Below the pieces are notes generated by a model. That model was not told the origin of the DNA. It did no database searches and saw only the letters and a list, made by a program, of their open reading frames with translations. A stretch of 9,938 bases of DNA from Candidatus Latescibacterota bacterium (lineage in GTDB: Bacteria > JAAXHH01 > JACQVL01): positions 1 to 9,938 of the forward strand of contig JACQVL010000022.1 of the NCBI GenBank assembly GCA_016209865.1, given 5' to 3'. Shown in pieces: positions 2,398 through 9,938 of this stretch (positions are counted from its first letter, which is position 1; each line of letters starts with the position of its first letter). Both the position numbers and the translations under genes were made by a program.

Positions 2398-4554
2398 ATG
2401 GAGAACCTTTCAAGAGACCCCTCTGCTTCCATCCTCGTCCGGAGCGCCCCCTTTCCCGGCCTGTGCTACATCTCCGGGCTGACCCTCTACGATGAAGCGC
2501 TGATCGAGGGCCGTTGGGTCGGCCGGTACTGGACAGCAAACGGGTTTATCGAACCGGAGCGAAACCTGAAATGGGTGACGCAGAACAGTCACACTCCTGA
2601 CAGCATCATCGGGCTTGATCTGCATGCGTTCGGACTGGAGATGGACGGCCAATCGCTCCACTTTGGCTGGGAGCTTGAGGGGATTCACCAGGGGCCACCT
2701 GGCAAGACGGGCGTGTGCCGCTCGGTTGCCCACTTGCGTAGCCGTCTCCGCCCGGTCATGCTCTCCATCCATACAGAAGTGGACGGCACCGGGTTTCTGC
2801 GACGATGGCTGGAGGTGAAGAATACGGGCGACAGCCCCTCTGCACTCAGCGCAATCTGGCCGTGGAGCGGGCTACTGGCCCGTGTGACCAACTGGCGGGA
2901 GACACTCGGCCAGGACGCGCCCGTGTTTATCGTGGGCTCTATGGCGGAGCGCACCTGGGGCACAGAGGGCGCGTTTGCCTGGCAGCCGTTGCCGAGCACC
3001 CCGCTCCGACTGGAGAGCCGGACGGGGAAGTCGGGGCACGGGACCCCGTTCTTCATCGTGCGGAACGAGGCCACGGGGGAACATATCGTCGGCGGCCTGG
3101 AGTGGTCGGGCAACTGGGCGATCGAGCTGACCTGTGAGCAATTCGGCTCGTCGGACGCGTTGCTGGGGTTTCGGGCCGGGCCGGTCAACCCTGGACCGCT
3201 ACGGGTGGTGGCGCCCGGCGAAACGGTGACGAGTCCAACGATGCACCTGGGAATGCTCTTTACCGACCTGGACGGCGCAGTGCAGGCATGGCATGCCCAC
3301 CTGCGGAAGAGCGTGCTCTGTCCCCAGCCGGAAGGGCGAGCCGGCCTGGTGGTCTACAACCACTGGAGCTACCATGAGCACGAAATGACGGAGGAGCGAC
3401 TCAAGTTTGAGGTAGACGTCGGGGCGGAGATCGGCGCGGAAGTCTTCGTCGTGGACGCCGGATGGTTCGGGAATATCAACACCAACTGGTGGACGACGGT
3501 CGGGGATTGGACGTGCGGAAATCGGCTCCCTGACGGACTGGAGCCCGTCTTCTCCTACGCGCGCCAGAAAGGGCTGCTCTGCGGTCTGTGGATGGATGCG
3601 GAACGCCTGGGCTCCGAGAGTCAAGTCGCCAAGGAACACCCGGAATGGCTGCTCACGCGGTACGGGACGCCGACCGGCTCCGGGGATCTGGACCTGACGA
3701 ACCCGGACGCGCAGGCGTGGCTGGAGGCGCAGATCGTCGGGCTCATCGAGCGGTACGGCCTCGACCTCTTCCGTCTGGACTATAATACCACTCCCTATGA
3801 GGGTGGGCAAACGCTCCGTGACGGGTACATGGAGAATTCCCAGTGGCGGCATTACGAGTTCGTCTACAGCCTGTACGACCGGTTGAAGCAGCGGTTCCCT
3901 TCATTGATCCTTGAGAATTGCGCGGGCGGTGGCGGGCGGACGGACCTCGGTCTGGCCAGTCGCTTCCATCATACCTGGATTACGGACTGGCAAATCCTGC
4001 CGCGAGCCATTCGAATTCTGAACGGGATGACGCTCGCCCTCCCGCCAGAGCGAGTAGACCGGAACTCTGGCGTCGGACAGAACGCCCATGTTCGGGGAGC
4101 CCTGGACACACAACTCCGTGCGACGCTGTTCAGCCACTGCACTCTGACCGGAATCTATCCCTCGCCCGGCGAACGAAACCCAGAGCACGTCCAGCGGGTC
4201 CGGCATGCAGTCGATCTCTACAAGCACTTCATCCGGACGTTCCTCTCGACCTGCCGGGTGTATCATCACACACCCATCCTCGCCGGTCGGGAGCCGCGGG
4301 GATGGTGTGTCTGGGAGTACGTGGCGGCGGATGCGTCACGGGCGGTCATCGGTCTGTTCCGCCTGGCAGGCGCGGCTGAGACCGGGTACCATGTGTCTCC
4401 GCGCGGCCTGGACCGTCAGAAGCGTTACCGCATTACCTTCGACAACGAAGGGACAACGATCGAAAAAGATGGGGATACACTAAGACGTGATGGACTCTCT
4501 GTCTCTATCGGTCATGCGTTAGGGTCTGAATTATTGCTGTTGCAGGCGGTGTGA
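2398..4554 (+). CDS. GH36 family glycosidase (alpha-galactosidase-like)
   Basis: At 718 residues this has normal GH36 length: an N-terminal beta-supersandwich (~1-300), a TIM barrel (~310-620) and a C-terminal beta domain. There is no signal peptide, so it acts in the cytoplasm as a retaining exo-glycosidase. Visible barrel motifs are YNHWSYHEHEMTEE (320-333), FVVDAGWFG (350-358), VGDWTCGNRLPDGL (368-381), GLWMDAERLGSES (396-408), HPEWLL (414-419), LFRLDYN with nucleophile D461, CAGGGGRTDLGL (508-519), and WITDW with acid/base D530. Compared with textbook GH36 enzymes, LDDGW is VDAGW, the Lys of KWD is Arg459, EPE is DAE and SDN is TDW. The fold and mechanism are secure. The sugar removed may not be plain alpha-galactose. 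It lies 97 bp downstream of the sugar-acid dehydratase, consistent with shared transcription. Confidence 0.92.
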   Translation: MENLSRDPSASILVRSAPFPGLCYISGLTLYDEALIEGRWVGRYWTANGFIEPERNLKWVTQNSHTPDSIIGLDLHAFGLEMDGQSLHFGWELEGIHQGPPGKTGVCRSVAHLRSRLRPVMLSIHTEVDGTGFLRRWLEVKNTGDSPSALSAIWPWSGLLARVTNWRETLGQDAPVFIVGSMAERTWGTEGAFAWQPLPSTPLRLESRTGKSGHGTPFFIVRNEATGEHIVGGLEWSGNWAIELTCEQFGSSDALLGFRAGPVNPGPLRVVAPGETVTSPTMHLGMLFTDLDGAVQAWHAHLRKSVLCPQPEGRAGLVVYNHWSYHEHEMTEERLKFEVDVGAEIGAEVFVVDAGWFGNINTNWWTTVGDWTCGNRLPDGLEPVFSYARQKGLLCGLWMDAERLGSESQVAKEHPEWLLTRYGTPTGSGDLDLTNPDAQAWLEAQIVGLIERYGLDLFRLDYNTTPYEGGQTLRDGYMENSQWRHYEFVYSLYDRLKQRFPSLILENCAGGGGRTDLGLASRFHHTWITDWQILPRAIRILNGMTLALPPERVDRNSGVGQNAHVRGALDTQLRATLFSHCTLTGIYPSPGERNPEHVQRVRHAVDLYKHFIRTFLSTCRVYHHTPILAGREPRGWCVWEYVAADASRAVIGLFRLAGAAETGYHVSPRGLDRQKRYRITFDNEGTTIEKDGDTLRRDGLSVSIGHALGSELLLLQAV

Positions 4555-4660: not shown

Positions 4661-7372
4661 ATGTCGATCACGAACAGTGCATGGGTACAGAAGGGATTCC
4701 AGGACTTCATCCGGGGGACATTCGAGGATGGAGGGAGTAACCTGTACGTCAATGCAAACGGCATCATCGAGATGATTCACCGGACAGACGTGAACCACGA
4801 CGGGTATGTCGATATCATTCTGCCCAATTCTCACGGGTATATTGAGCGAGGGCCGACGTGGGTCTACAGAGTGGGGGCCGGGGAAGGGAAAGACTGGGAG
4901 CGCCGGGAGCTGCCGAACGATAGCGGGTGGATGAGTCGCATCGTGGATGTCGATGGGGATGGGTTCCCCGACCTGATCGTCGTGAATGGTGAAAACGGCG
5001 TCACGTCTGAGTTGATGTCGTACGTCTACTGGGGTGGTCCCAACGGGCTGACCGGTGAGCGAACAGAACTCCCGACCGTAGGGGCCTACGATGTGGCGAT
5101 CGTTGACGTGAACCGGGATGGGTACCTGGACCTGATCTTTCCTTCCGCCTGGGTTGATCATCACAACCCCGGACGCCCCAGACTCCTTCACGTCTATGTG
5201 CAGACCGGGGCGCGTCAGTTTGAGGACGCCTCGGAGCGGTACGGGTTGAGCGGGGTGGCTGCGGTGTCGGCGGCCTCTGCCGACCTGAACGGCGACGGGT
5301 GGCCTGACCTGGTGATCGCAAACTACCGGAGTGAGTTTGATTACGACACGGATTCCTTTGTCTACTGGGGAACGGAGGATGGGTTTGATGTCGAAGCCCC
5401 CTTACGTCTCCCGACCCATTGCGCCCTGAGGGTCCTACTCGCCGACCTCGACAGTGATGGCCGTAAGGAGATCATCTTCTGCGGGGGTGATCAGGTCATG
5501 ATCTACTGGAACGATCGGGGCACATTCACCCCTGATCACCGCACGACCATTGAGACGAAGGGGTTCAGCACGATGTTCTGCCTGGGAGCGATGAACGCTG
5601 CTGCTGCCGATCTGGATCTGGATGGGCGCAACGAGTTGGTTCTGGCGACCGAAGACGGGGTGCAAATCCGCTCTTCGAGCGATCTGCAGAAGGTACACAC
5701 GTTTCTTCCCCTGGGATACGCCTCGTGGGTTCACGCCGCAGACCTGGATGAGGATGGCCGGCCGGAACTGATCGTCAGCAAGTATGACGACCGGATCACC
5801 TACGAGACGGAGTCGATGATCTTCTGGAATGGAGCGGAGGGGTTTTCCACCGACAGGGTGAGCCGGGTGCCCACCGCCGGCGCGATGGGCTGCACAGCCG
5901 GTGATCTTGACGGGGATGGTCGTCCGGAGGTGGTCTTCAACAACACCATGCTCGGCCCGTCCCAGTTCTACAAAGATTTCCCGATTTACGTCTATCTGGG
6001 GAGCAAGGATGCCGTCTACGGCGTCCACCGCCGGCTGGAATTGCCCTCCGGAGGGGGGAGCACTGCCTGCGTGATGGCCGACCTCGATCTGGACGGCTAC
6101 CACGATCTGGTCATCACGACACCAGAGGGAATCCGCATCTTCCCGGGTAGCCCGGACGGCCCCAGGTCCGACCGGTCTATTGACCTGCCCGTCCGTGGTG
6201 GACCTGTAATGCAGGTCCATGTGGCCGACTTCAATCGGGATGGCTATCTCGATCTGCTCGTCTCGGTGCAGACGTACGATGACCGTCCCGAGTCGATGGC
6301 CGATTCCTCGGTCATCTTCTACGGGTCGGCCGGAGGGTTTTCGACCGACCGAACCGAGGTCCTGCCGACTTACAGCGCCGGCCAGGCACATCTGGCCGAC
6401 GTCAACCGGGATGGGTACCTCGACATTGCTATGGGGGATAAACGGGGGTATGTCAGGATCTTCCTCGGTGGGCCTGACGGCTATTCCCCCGAGCGCGTCT
6501 GGAAGATTCCGCTCAATTTTACCCTGATAGGCTCGCTCAACACCGCCGACCTGAACAAGGACGGATGGCTCGATCTGATCGTCGGTATCCTGAGCCACTA
6601 CCAGCGGGAACGGGGAACCTTTTTTATCTTTTACGGGGGGCCGGAGGGGTTCGATCCCGGCAACAGCCAATGTTACGTCGGGGGATACTCTCCCCACCAG
6701 ATCAGTATCGCCGATTTCGATCGCGATGGGAACCTGGACCTGCTCGTGGCGGCCTATTCGTCAGATCTCACACGGGTCTTACCGGCCCAACTGTTCCGGG
6801 GGAACGGCCGGATCATCGACCTCGATCATCCCCTCGACATTCCGGCCGATTCTGCCTCCCACATCACGGCCATCGACCTGAACCGCAACGGCTACGTCGA
6901 TCTGATTGTGGCCTGCCACCGCAATGACCTGGGGCATCAGGTCGATTCGCTGATCTACTGGAATGGGCCTGCCGGGATCTCCCCAGAACGGACGACACCG
7001 CTGCCCGGGATGGGACCTCACTGGATGACCATCAGAGATCACGGGAACGCCTACACCCGGGAGCCGGTGGAACACTACATCTCACCGGCGTTCGATTTGC
7101 AGGGCCGGATGCCCGCCTCGATTTCCTGGGATGCCTCTGTCCCCCCGACGACGCAACTGAAGTTCCAGTTGCGCTGGGCGAGCAACAGAGAGCATCTGGA
7201 ACAGGCCGAATGGCAGGGGTCAGGAGGGGAGGGGACGTACTACGAACGCTCGGGGGAAGCGGTACAGCATGTCCCTCTGACAGCGCACTGGCTGCAGTAC
7301 CGGGCGAGGTTTGTCTCTCTGTATGACTGCTCCTCACCCCAGTTGCAAGAGGTACGTGTCGACCTTCAATAG
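4661..7372 (+). CDS. FG-GAP/VCBS-type repeat protein with 14 calcium-loop blades
   Basis: This 903-residue protein contains fourteen D-x-[DN]-x-[DN]-G-x-x-[DE] loops, starting at residues 43, 96, 149, 208, 262, 317, 361, 415, 474, 523, 580, 630, 685 and 739. Spacing is 44-59 residues. Most loops are followed by a beta strand of the DLIV type, then a Y(W/Y)G-x-x-x-G(F/L)-type segment. This is the calcium-binding blade of integrin-like FG-GAP propellers, and 14 fits two seven-bladed propellers. Residues ~785-903 form a separate, probably beta-sandwich domain (HYISPAFDL at 805-813, WLQYRARFVSLYD at 877-889). No signal peptide is visible. A TGA at 4634-4636 in the same frame rules out a longer N-terminus. 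The ATG follows an AAGGGG site at 4646-4651. No catalytic residues are evident. Binding or scaffolding of a carbohydrate or enzyme is inference. Confidence 0.88.
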   Translation: MSITNSAWVQKGFQDFIRGTFEDGGSNLYVNANGIIEMIHRTDVNHDGYVDIILPNSHGYIERGPTWVYRVGAGEGKDWERRELPNDSGWMSRIVDVDGDGFPDLIVVNGENGVTSELMSYVYWGGPNGLTGERTELPTVGAYDVAIVDVNRDGYLDLIFPSAWVDHHNPGRPRLLHVYVQTGARQFEDASERYGLSGVAAVSAASADLNGDGWPDLVIANYRSEFDYDTDSFVYWGTEDGFDVEAPLRLPTHCALRVLLADLDSDGRKEIIFCGGDQVMIYWNDRGTFTPDHRTTIETKGFSTMFCLGAMNAAAADLDLDGRNELVLATEDGVQIRSSSDLQKVHTFLPLGYASWVHAADLDEDGRPELIVSKYDDRITYETESMIFWNGAEGFSTDRVSRVPTAGAMGCTAGDLDGDGRPEVVFNNTMLGPSQFYKDFPIYVYLGSKDAVYGVHRRLELPSGGGSTACVMADLDLDGYHDLVITTPEGIRIFPGSPDGPRSDRSIDLPVRGGPVMQVHVADFNRDGYLDLLVSVQTYDDRPESMADSSVIFYGSAGGFSTDRTEVLPTYSAGQAHLADVNRDGYLDIAMGDKRGYVRIFLGGPDGYSPERVWKIPLNFTLIGSLNTADLNKDGWLDLIVGILSHYQRERGTFFIFYGGPEGFDPGNSQCYVGGYSPHQISIADFDRDGNLDLLVAAYSSDLTRVLPAQLFRGNGRIIDLDHPLDIPADSASHITAIDLNRNGYVDLIVACHRNDLGHQVDSLIYWNGPAGISPERTTPLPGMGPHWMTIRDHGNAYTREPVEHYISPAFDLQGRMPASISWDASVPPTTQLKFQLRWASNREHLEQAEWQGSGGEGTYYERSGEAVQHVPLTAHWLQYRARFVSLYDCSSPQLQEVRVDLQ
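4787..6901 (+). repeat. Coding repeat region: 14 calcium-binding propeller blades
   Basis: The region runs from the first codon of blade loop 1 to the last codon of loop 14, with a period near 160 bp. Most copies have diverged at the DNA level, but some stay close. The loops at 5105-5131 and 6398-6424 differ at only 2 of 27 bases (GACGTSAACCGGGATGGG followed by TACCTSGAC). Loop 14 has Asn in place of the third acidic residue (DLNRNG). Confidence 0.85.
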
Positions 7373-7449: not shown

Positions 7450-8571
7450 ATGTTACCCAAAGAACGAGTCATCCGGGCGTTGAACCATCAGGAACCCGAC
7501 CGGGTGCCGACGGGTGAAATCGGCATCGACTATCCCATCACGGAGCGCGTGCTGGGACGGGAGACGTTCTACCGGGCGAAATGGAAAGAGATGATTGCCC
7601 TGTGGGACGGGAGACGGGATGAGGTGGTGGAGAGCACCAAACGGGACCTGGTCGACCTGGTGCGAAAGTTGGAGCTGGACTTTGTCCCGGTCTTTTTTGT
7701 GCCGCCCAAGGGCCACCGGCCTCAGAAGCCCAAATTTCTCGATACGTATACCTGGGAGGACGAGGTCGGCCGCATCTGGAAGTTCTCCCCTGAATCAGAA
7801 GGCTGGCCGCTATGCATCCAGGAGGTCGACGTCAGCCTGGAGGAGATCAAGGTTCCTTCCACGGTCGAGATCGACGAATCCGAACTGGAACTGGTGCGGT
7901 ACGTCGTCAACGAGCTTGGGGACACCCACTTCATCCTGGGACGGGACGCTGACGGCACATTCCCCTGTCCCGGCGGCATCACCAGCTTTCTCCTGAAGAT
8001 GATCGCCGAGCCTGAGTTCGTCAGCAAAGCCATCCAGGCGAGCACGAAAACCGCCATCGCACGGGGCAACGCGCTCATCGAGGCGGGGTGTGATGGGATT
8101 CTGATGGGGGCCGACTATTGCGAGAACCGGGGGCCGATGATGTCCCCCCACCATTTCAGAGAGTACATCTTCCCGTCCCTGAAGGAGCACTGCACCGCGT
8201 TTCACAAGGCTGGGGTCTGGGCGATCAAACACACCGACGGCAACACCTGGCCGATCATGGACATGATGCTCGAGGCGGACATCGACGGGCTGCACGGCAT
8301 CCAGACGACCGCCGGGATGGACATGAGAGAGCTCAAGGAAAAGGTGGGGGACAGAATCGCCTTGTGGGGGGCGATCGACTGTGACCTGTTGATCCGGGGG
8401 ACGGAAGAAGCGGTGGCCCGGGAGGTGGAGTACGACATCACGTCTGCAGGGCCGGGGGGTGGACTGATCGTGACATCGGGGAACACGATCATGGTAGGAG
8501 TCAGATACGAGAACTACATGGCGATGTTGAAGACGGTTCGAGACAAGGGCCGGTACCCGATTTGTGCTTGA
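7450..8571 (+). CDS. Uroporphyrinogen decarboxylase-fold protein, MtaA/CmuA-like group
   Basis: This 373-residue soluble protein starts at ATG 7450 and begins with the family signature PKERVIRALNHQEPDRVP. A TIM barrel covers most of its length. Family segments include FILGRDADGTFPCPGG (161-176), GCDGILMGADYCENRGPMMS (213-232), KHTDGN (260-265), DIDGLHGIQ (277-285) and a C-terminal GGLIVTSGNTI (337-347). The usual HemE substrate motif (RQAGR type) is absent, so haem synthesis is unlikely. Corrinoid:CoM-type methyltransferases carry H-x-C zinc ligands where this protein has H261-T-D263, so a metal site would differ. The role could be methyl transfer or processing of another substrate. The neighbours suggest sugar metabolism rather than tetrapyrroles. 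The family call is firm and the activity unknown. A second UroD-fold gene follows after 38 bp. Confidence 0.88.
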   Translation: MLPKERVIRALNHQEPDRVPTGEIGIDYPITERVLGRETFYRAKWKEMIALWDGRRDEVVESTKRDLVDLVRKLELDFVPVFFVPPKGHRPQKPKFLDTYTWEDEVGRIWKFSPESEGWPLCIQEVDVSLEEIKVPSTVEIDESELELVRYVVNELGDTHFILGRDADGTFPCPGGITSFLLKMIAEPEFVSKAIQASTKTAIARGNALIEAGCDGILMGADYCENRGPMMSPHHFREYIFPSLKEHCTAFHKAGVWAIKHTDGNTWPIMDMMLEADIDGLHGIQTTAGMDMRELKEKVGDRIALWGAIDCDLLIRGTEEAVAREVEYDITSAGPGGGLIVTSGNTIMVGVRYENYMAMLKTVRDKGRYPICA

Positions 8572-8595
8572 CGTGAATGAATTGAGTGGCGAGGA

Positions 8596-8603
8596 GAGAG
8601 GAG
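8596..8603 (+). promoter_or_regulatory. Shine-Dalgarno site deciding the second UroD-fold start
   Basis: GAGAGGAG lies six bases before ATG 8610. An in-frame GTG at 8586 would add MARREELR, but no comparable site precedes it, and the site described here would then lie inside the coding sequence. ATG 8610 is preferred. Confidence 0.65.
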
Positions 8604-8609
8604 TTGAGG

Positions 8610-9839
8610 ATGAATCAGAAAGAGCGAGCGATCGTACGAGACCTGGCCGAGCGTGTGGCCGAGGTCGCCAGTCTGCCCATCATGGCCGAACGGCGGGCAA
8701 TGTGGAAACGCCACAACCGGCTTGAGCGCGTCCGCCCGATGATCTTAGTGTTCCCCGAAGGCGCCTGGCGCGAACTCTTGCCCCAGTCCGCATTGCAGTG
8801 TGAAGACCCCATCGCACGAGCGATGGAATGGACGTTCCGGAGCCGGCTGTACTACCACGATCATTTCTACGACGATACGGTCATCGAAAAGGAGTGGGTA
8901 GTGAATAAGGTGGTCACCTCGACCGGCTGGGGACTCGACCTCAGGGAGGTCCCAAGCCACGATCCCACCGGGGCCTGGGGGTTTGATCCGGTCATCAACA
9001 CCCCGGATGACCTCAACAAGCTCCGGTTCCCTGAGATCCGGTATGACGAGGAGACGACCCGGCGAAATGACGAAACGGCCCAGGAAGTCTTCGGCGACAT
9101 CCTGGACGTCAAACTCAAAGGGATCAGCCACGTCTCCTTTCATCTGATGAACCTCTACACCCGGCTTCGGGGCCTGGAGCAGGTGCTGTACGATATGTAT
9201 GAAAACTCCAGCATGCTCCATGAGGCGATGGCATTCCTGGAAGAGGGACACCGTCGCATCATCGAACAGTACCAACGCCTGAACCTGCTCAGCCTGAATA
9301 ATGACAGTACGTACCATTCGTCGGGCGGCGTCGGGTACACCGACGAGCTGCCGCATCGAGAGGACGGGTTTGATCCCGACCACGTTCGGCCCTGTGATAT
9401 CTGGGCTTCTGCGGAGGCCCAGGAGATGGACCCGGTCTCCCCGGAGATGCACGAAGAATTCATCCTGCAGTATGAAAAGCGCCTGCTCGAACCGTTCGGG
9501 CTGAACGGCTACGGCTGCTGTGACGACCTCTCGCGGAAGATGGATTACGTGTTTCGAATCCCCCACATCCGGCGCATCTCCATCGCCCCCTGGGCCGACG
9601 TGGACGTGAGCGCGGAACGCCTCCAGGGCAACTATATCTTCTCCTGGAAACCCAAACCGTTTCACCTCGTCGGCACGTTCGACGCGCAAAAAGTACGCGA
9701 CTACATCACGCATACCCTGGATGTCACCCGCGGGTGCGTGATCGAGATGATCCTCAAAGACACCCACACGTGCGAGCATCATCCGGAACGGTTTACCCAG
9801 TGGACGGCGATCGCGCGTAAATTGGTCGAACAGTACTGA
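8610..9839 (+). CDS. Second uroporphyrinogen decarboxylase-fold protein, divergent subgroup
   Basis: This protein has 409 residues from ATG 8610 and no signal peptide. It has the architecture of a large UroD-like family of unknown function: a charged helical start, then RPMILVFPEGAWRELLP (42-58), where the first barrel strand is expected. Later it has NGYGCCDD (299-306), IPHIRRISIAPWADVD (317-332), FSWKPKP (344-350) and ILKDTHT (381-387). The adjacent Cys303-Cys304 pair falls about where the upstream paralogue has H261-T-D263, which could create a thiol metal or corrinoid site. Overall similarity to the upstream protein is low, so a complex or sequential steps are more likely than redundancy. 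Spacing of 38 bp suggests co-expression. Methyl-transfer chemistry is an inference from relatives, not shown here. Confidence 0.82.
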   Translation: MNQKERAIVRDLAERVAEVASLPIMAERRAMWKRHNRLERVRPMILVFPEGAWRELLPQSALQCEDPIARAMEWTFRSRLYYHDHFYDDTVIEKEWVVNKVVTSTGWGLDLREVPSHDPTGAWGFDPVINTPDDLNKLRFPEIRYDEETTRRNDETAQEVFGDILDVKLKGISHVSFHLMNLYTRLRGLEQVLYDMYENSSMLHEAMAFLEEGHRRIIEQYQRLNLLSLNNDSTYHSSGGVGYTDELPHREDGFDPDHVRPCDIWASAEAQEMDPVSPEMHEEFILQYEKRLLEPFGLNGYGCCDDLSRKMDYVFRIPHIRRISIAPWADVDVSAERLQGNYIFSWKPKPFHLVGTFDAQKVRDYITHTLDVTRGCVIEMILKDTHTCEHHPERFTQWTAIARKLVEQY

Positions 9840-9926: not shown

Positions 9927-9938
9927 ATGTCGCACACG
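9927..9938 (+). CDS. Start of a further gene (3' truncated)
   Basis: Only ATG and three codons (M-S-H-T) are visible, so nothing can be said about the product. The ribosome site and same-strand position 87 bp after the UroD-fold pair suggest it continues the cluster. A cobalamin-binding corrinoid protein here would support the methyl-transfer idea. Confidence 0.6.

Follow-up and report, generated by a model that had tools for sequence, protein, structure and literature searches.

Introduction

Methyltransferases of the MtaA/CmuA family, which share the fold of uroporphyrinogen decarboxylase (UroD), hold zinc through the ligands of an H-x-C motif and a distal Cys. CdmB, MtvB, OdmB and VdmB are substrate-specific MT1-type methyltransferases of the same superfamily whose partners are a corrinoid carrier, a reactivase and a tetrahydrofolate (H4folate) methyltransferase; in the Cdm system the corrinoid gene belongs to the cluster itself (cdmBCA), and the structure of CdmB showed no zinc (PMC13222342). 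In the type 1 mlp clusters, several dissimilar UroD-like methyltransferases occur together with a single corrinoid protein and a single reactivase (PMC10418091). As regards methylated sugars, one report describes marine bacteria that demethylate 6-O-methyl-galactose oxidatively via P450 (PMC10033563). No anaerobic counterpart of this reaction was found in the literature searched, and nothing relevant came of searching it for sugar loci that contain UroD-like genes or for corrinoid demethylation of sugars, an absence that is not proof.

Here we describe two neighboring UroD-fold genes, A and B, in a window of 9938 bp, which is one complete contig (C203) of a Candidatus Latescibacterota genome of 3.75 Mb (356 contigs, 83% complete). 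We favor, with a probability of about 0.52, the reading that A and B are separate MT1-type (substrate-side) methyltransferases of the UroD superfamily in a hub-and-spoke corrinoid network, and are neither haem enzymes nor the halves of one enzyme.

Results

Two UroD-superfamily genes in a sugar-degradation locus

Gene A (7450–8571, + strand; 373 aa) and gene B (8610–9839, + strand; 409 aa) are open frames with ATG starts separated by 38 bp (8572–8609), as the preliminary description had placed them. Upstream, all on the + strand, lie a partial 222-aa frame that runs off the contig start (2–670) and has no Pfam or NCBIfam match, a D-galactonate dehydratase-type gene of the enolase superfamily (1179–2300; NF010624, 315.2 bits against a cut-off of 311), a GH36 (melibiase) gene for an alpha-galactosidase-type glycosidase (2398–4554; PF02065, E = 4e-43) and a gene for a 903-aa FG-GAP repeat (VCBS-type beta-propeller) protein (4661–7372; PF13517, E = 1e-70). 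The galactonate dehydratase and GH36 genes bear out the earlier view of this region as a sugar-degradation cluster. The genes are co-directional, and the gaps of 77 bp between the FG-GAP gene and A and of 38 bp between A and B make co-transcription of A and B with the sugar genes probable. Because the window is the entire contig and ends 99 bp 3' of B, the gene starting near 9927, past the end of B at 9839, is unreadable.

As also noted earlier, the window contains no haem biosynthesis gene. The true uroporphyrinogen decarboxylase of the genome is encoded on contig C195 (TIGR01464, 411.9 bits, cut-off 303), where HemD and HemE are fused into a single 659-aa protein (L030:5075-7054).

Gene A is predicted to share the fold of MtaA and UroD

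Gene A matches PF01208 in a Pfam profile search (E = 8e-27; 94.7 bits, cut-off 23.9) and misses the NCBIfam cut-off of every characterized subfamily, scoring 72.2 bits against TIGR01463 (MtaA/CmuA, cut-off 235) and 19.7 bits against TIGR01464 (hemE, cut-off 303). The best PDB sequence match is MtaA (4ay7; phmmer E = 5e-9), and the AlphaFold2 model of A (pLDDT 80.9) matches MtaA 4ay7 (Z = 31.3) and UroD 1j93 (Z = 31.2), a tie. Sequence similarity between A and CdmB (9rui) is negligible (E = 0.74); CdmB is also absent from the Foldseek/VIA structural matches, where the release of 9rui may postdate the database copies.

In the alignment with 4ay7, the zinc motif H-I-C-G of MtaA corresponds to H-T-D-G of A (residues 261–264; 8230–8241, + strand), so that the His of H-x-C is kept and Asp stands for the zinc Cys, while the distal site reads V-T-S-G-N, with Ser/Gly/Asn near the second zinc Cys. 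With H-T-D and V-T-S-G-N at these two places, A departs from the MtaA/CmuA ligand pattern. Among the UroD-like proteins in the loci examined, H-x-D-G occurs most often, and H-x-C-G with a distal Cys is also present in this genome.

Gene B belongs to a widespread uncurated family

In profile searches, no Pfam or NCBIfam model matches gene B, TIGR01463 and TIGR01464 included, and PDB sequence searches with B or with the B-family profile gave no real match. The AlphaFold2 model of B (pLDDT 89.6) aligns with uroporphyrinogen decarboxylase at Z = 20.6 over 283 residues (3.5 Å) and with MtaA at Z = 17.1, the next fold group (MetE-type) following at Z of about 10–11, and the B-family profile aligns with the UroD-family profile with an hhalign probability of 97.6–98.5 (E = 4e-12 for that single comparison). 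B is thus a predicted UroD-fold protein, belonging to the PF01208 superfamily by fold though without a Pfam match. The preliminary assignment of both proteins to the UroD/MtaA fold is upheld, for A by PF01208 and the model, and for B by the model and the profile comparison.

The family motif YGCC[ED] is Y-G-C-C-D in B (residues 301–305; 9510–9524, + strand), and its first four residues are invariant in 120/120 relatives overall. The scan pattern behind loci L031–L110 itself included YGCC, so conservation there is partly built in; we used instead 38 relatives selected by other routes, independently of the motif, in all of which Y301, G302, C303 and C304 are invariant, together with E73, D89, W265, Q271, D384 and T387. 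D384 and T387 are part of D-T-H-T (residues 384–387; 9759–9770, + strand), which would fall close to where MtaA has its second zinc Cys. Profile alignment sets C304 opposite the D of HTDG in A, and hence in line with the zinc Cys of MtaA, which agrees with the earlier remark that H-T-D-G and G-C-C-D occupy roughly the same barrel position. As judged from alignments only, the metal site of B would have Cys at the Cys position, Gly at the His position and D384 distally, with G-C-C in place of H-x-C, and so would not follow the MtaA/CmuA ligand pattern. A His/Cys zinc site had been envisaged for such proteins; one element of it stands, the Cys of B at the zinc-Cys position, but A has Asp there, B has Gly at the His position, and the CdmB structure is without zinc (PMC13222342).

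In a scan of GTDB species genomes, relatives of B were found in at least 585 candidate coding stretches, and the best 80 of these are in records labelled Poribacteria, Latescibacterota, Planctomycetota, Chloroflexi, Armatimonadota, Kiritimatiellota, Lentisphaerota, Spirochaetales, Clostridia and others. Among the matches listed, the nearest named relatives include Poribacteria and Latescibacterota records. Within Anaerolineae, B occurs in 39/249 genomes with up to six copies each; of the 14 genomes from f3, a different family in the same order, none has it. B is therefore a widespread multi-phylum family missing from curated databases, and represents a new subfamily within a known superfamily. 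To our knowledge, no member of the A or B family has been biochemically characterized. Experimental work on B is feasible, as Caldicoprobacter algeriensis TH7C1 (L051), a named strain, and a Butyricicoccus strain (L083) both carry it.

Many of the loci that contain B are carbohydrate loci. The operonic or adjacent neighbors of B include genes for alpha-L-fucosidase, GH95, GH38, GH3, sulfatase, an MFS sugar transporter, GFO/IDH/MocA and xylose-isomerase-like proteins, with no one constant partner gene among them, a variety that fits locus-specific substrates.

Adjacency of A and B

A UroD gene lies directly adjacent to B on the same strand in 10/117 B loci, 4–7 times the 1.4–2.6 expected from the UroD density of B-bearing genomes (5.5–10.3 per Mb; p = 3e-6 to 4e-4, a rough value because it assumes two neighbor genes, each 1.1 kb long, and independent loci). 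In the reverse direction, B is adjacent in 1/51 strong A-type loci of Armatimonadota and Planctomycetota. UroD–B adjacency is real but weak, and the conserved pairing of the two subfamilies across genomes, looked for from the side of A and from that of B, is rejected as a rule from both.

An A–B tandem recurs in Armatimonadota (L152/L203), where A is 46% and B 27% identical and the two are 11 bp apart including the stop codon of A, and a looser B–UroD–A-like arrangement is found in the sister genome (G001). The UroD partners adjoining B carry differing motifs (HSDG, HCCG, CSDG and HSHG). The closest relative of A, at 63% identity (L205:2724-3842, genome G728), is without B; it is flanked by LeuA (2-isopropylmalate synthase) and by an AroD/AroE fusion with shikimate kinase, its surroundings contain neither sugar nor corrinoid genes, and other relatives of A lie in QueC/radical-SAM (queuosine) contexts. 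The weak adjacency, the differing partner motifs, the single A-type locus with B and the LeuA/AroDE setting of this relative together argue that A and B are no more than recurring companions, and not subunits.

Corrinoid machinery is encoded in trans

No corrinoid protein and no Ram/RACE gene is present in the 9938-bp contig. The genome contains about 22 UroD-like genes as against one detected B12-binding_2 corrinoid protein and one RACo reactivase, both on contig C245, in the order UroD fragment, corrinoid protein, RACo, DUF1638, UroD, nitroreductase, UroD, homocysteine S-methyltransferase; the corrinoid protein is MtgC-like (219 bits) and the RACo AcsV-like (407 bits). On contig C194 (L025:1-7724), two UroD genes are followed co-directionally by three subunits of pyruvate-ferredoxin-oxidoreductase (POR) type (2-oxoacid:ferredoxin oxidoreductase subunits), a methyl-H4folate:corrinoid methyltransferase (NF005719, 324.8 bits, cut-off 259) and MTHFR. 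Carrier, reactivase and H4folate methyltransferase, the companions of CdmB-, MtvB- and OdmB-type MT1 proteins, are thus all in the genome, in trans. The corrinoid partners that the preliminary description had proposed to look for close to the pair do exist, but on these other contigs and not in the window.

In the sister genome, whose B is 67% identical, genes for methyl-H4folate methyltransferase (218 bits, partial) and MTHFR (833 bits) stand divergently beside B–UroD–UroD, and one Eubacteriales operon (L068) has the order UroD–UroD–corrinoid protein–B. A corrinoid gene adjoins B in only 1 of about 80 wide loci, approximately the chance level. At the genome level, a stand-alone corrinoid-protein frame is present in 48/50 B-bearing genomes and UroD-like genes in 50/50, with a median of 25 scored among the matches listed (a count that saturates at about 33 per genome). 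Among 249 Anaerolineae genomes, RACo is found in 37/39 with B versus 144/210 others (Fisher p = 3e-4, uncorrected for phylogeny, genome size and completeness). By comparison, any corrinoid domain (PF02607) is common in Anaerolineae generally (39/39 versus 193/210, p = 0.08) and is a weak discriminator.

Discussion

According to the favored hub-and-spoke reading, A and B would each bind their own small methylated substrate in the barrel, where a His/Asp- or Cys-based site on the C-terminal face would polarize it and the methyl group would be offered to the corrinoid, in its Co(I) state, of a common carrier protein, the one encoded on C245. The methyl-Co(III) carrier would be emptied by the C194 methyl-H4folate:corrinoid methyltransferase, yielding methyl-H4folate that MTHFR would then oxidize, and the RACo-type ATPase of C245 would rescue oxidized cobalt. 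For A and B we infer corrinoid dependence, the metal site and this direction of methyl transfer. The role would be that of CdmB-type MT1 proteins, from which A and B differ in having the corrinoid gene in trans and not in the same cluster (PMC13222342). C245 resembles the type 1 mlp clusters in its UroD-like genes with one carrier and one reactivase, as the Eubacteriales operon does in its UroD and corrinoid genes, whereas A and B sit in a sugar locus whose readable part, ending 99 bp 3' of B, holds no corrinoid gene, and the PF01208 HMM misses B (PMC10418091).

This reading draws on the predicted fold of both proteins, the imbalance between UroD-like genes and a single detected carrier and RACo, the gene order of C245 and C194, the folate neighbors in the sister genome, the Eubacteriales operon and, across B-bearing genomes, the frequent corrinoid-protein frames and RACo and the many UroD-like genes. 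The genomic evidence is consistent with a hub-and-spoke network, and none of it proves that B uses the corrinoid hub. Against it stand the lack of a corrinoid gene in the window, the chance-level adjacency of corrinoid genes to B, the uncorrected state of the RACo association, the commonness of corrinoid domains in general, the loss of the MtaA zinc Cys in A and of its His in B, and the placement of the closest relative of A between LeuA and AroDE/shikimate kinase genes, with no methyl-donor context.

Alternatively, A and B could be UroD-fold enzymes of non-corrinoid sugar or sugar-acid chemistry (of decarboxylation, lyase or isomerase type), with the corrinoid systems serving other UroD paralogues. 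The many carbohydrate genes beside B (fucosidase, GH95, GH38, GFO/IDH/MocA, sugar isomerase-like), the near absence of corrinoid genes adjoining it, the Asp of A at the zinc-Cys position and the conserved residues of B, unlike those of MtaA or UroD, would suit such a chemistry. We nevertheless consider it rather unlikely, given the co-occurrence of RACo, the folate gene neighbors in the sister genome and the fact that characterized members of the fold are UroD itself or methyltransferases (PMC13222342, PMC10418091). The carbohydrate neighbors of B speak in turn against a role of A and B in core one-carbon or methionine/thiol metabolism, like that of the mlp cluster methyltransferases or core-type MetE, with the sugar locus arising by chance, and the median number of paralogues per genome (among the matches listed) far exceeds what a single housekeeping step would need; such a role seems very improbable, even though a homocysteine S-methyltransferase is encoded on C245 and, in two further loci (L058, L148), close to B, and A-type genes occur in LeuA/AroDE and QueC/radical-SAM contexts.

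UroD proteins form dimers, and the 38-bp spacing, the recurrence of dissimilar UroD-fold tandems above expectation, the A–B tandem in a second phylum (L203) and the several UroD pairs of this genome would all accord with one heteromeric enzyme or an obligate two-step MT1–MT2 pair. Most B genes, however, have no adjacent UroD gene, the partner motifs vary, and B is nearly always missing beside A-type genes, the closest relative of A included; a heteromer or obligate pair is accordingly improbable, and the preliminary suggestion of two parts of one enzyme is not borne out by the counts from both sides.

Returning to the hub-and-spoke reading, the local substrate would be, as a guess, an O-methylated galactose-type sugar or derivative, and sugar O-demethylation by A and B is a plausible conjecture. 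A broader and distinctly doubtful extension is that B founds a UroD-fold methyltransferase family, marked by YGCC[ED] and spanning about ten phyla or more, that would remove sugar O-methyl groups anaerobically via a shared corrinoid hub, a B12 route replacing the oxygen-dependent P450 route. Anaerobic polysaccharide degraders, including Anaerolineae, Planctomycetota, Armatimonadota, Lentisphaerota, Clostridia, Poribacteria and others, often have dozens of UroD-like genes per genome; if these are spokes around one corrinoid carrier, the arrangement would account for the recovery by anaerobes of methyl groups from the glycans of algae and plants, and the substrate in each case could be surmised from the locus.

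The approximately 22 UroD-like genes of the genome often form pairs of dissimilar members, in tandem or nearly so (seen on C231, C194, C245, C41 and C355; L022–L028), and many have carbohydrate genes as neighbors. A single true MtaA/CmuA-family gene is present (C231:17370-18413; TIGR01463, 265 bits), and it runs into the beginning of a gene of a second divergent type. A third divergent family, D, includes three mutually related genes (L022:18400-19434, L026:6035-7108 and L112:1275-2369) with at most a weak MtaA/CmuA match, two of the three lacking any NCBIfam match. Family D genes immediately follow a UroD-like gene; some adjoin B (L145, L146), and in one locus (L108) a member lies near it.
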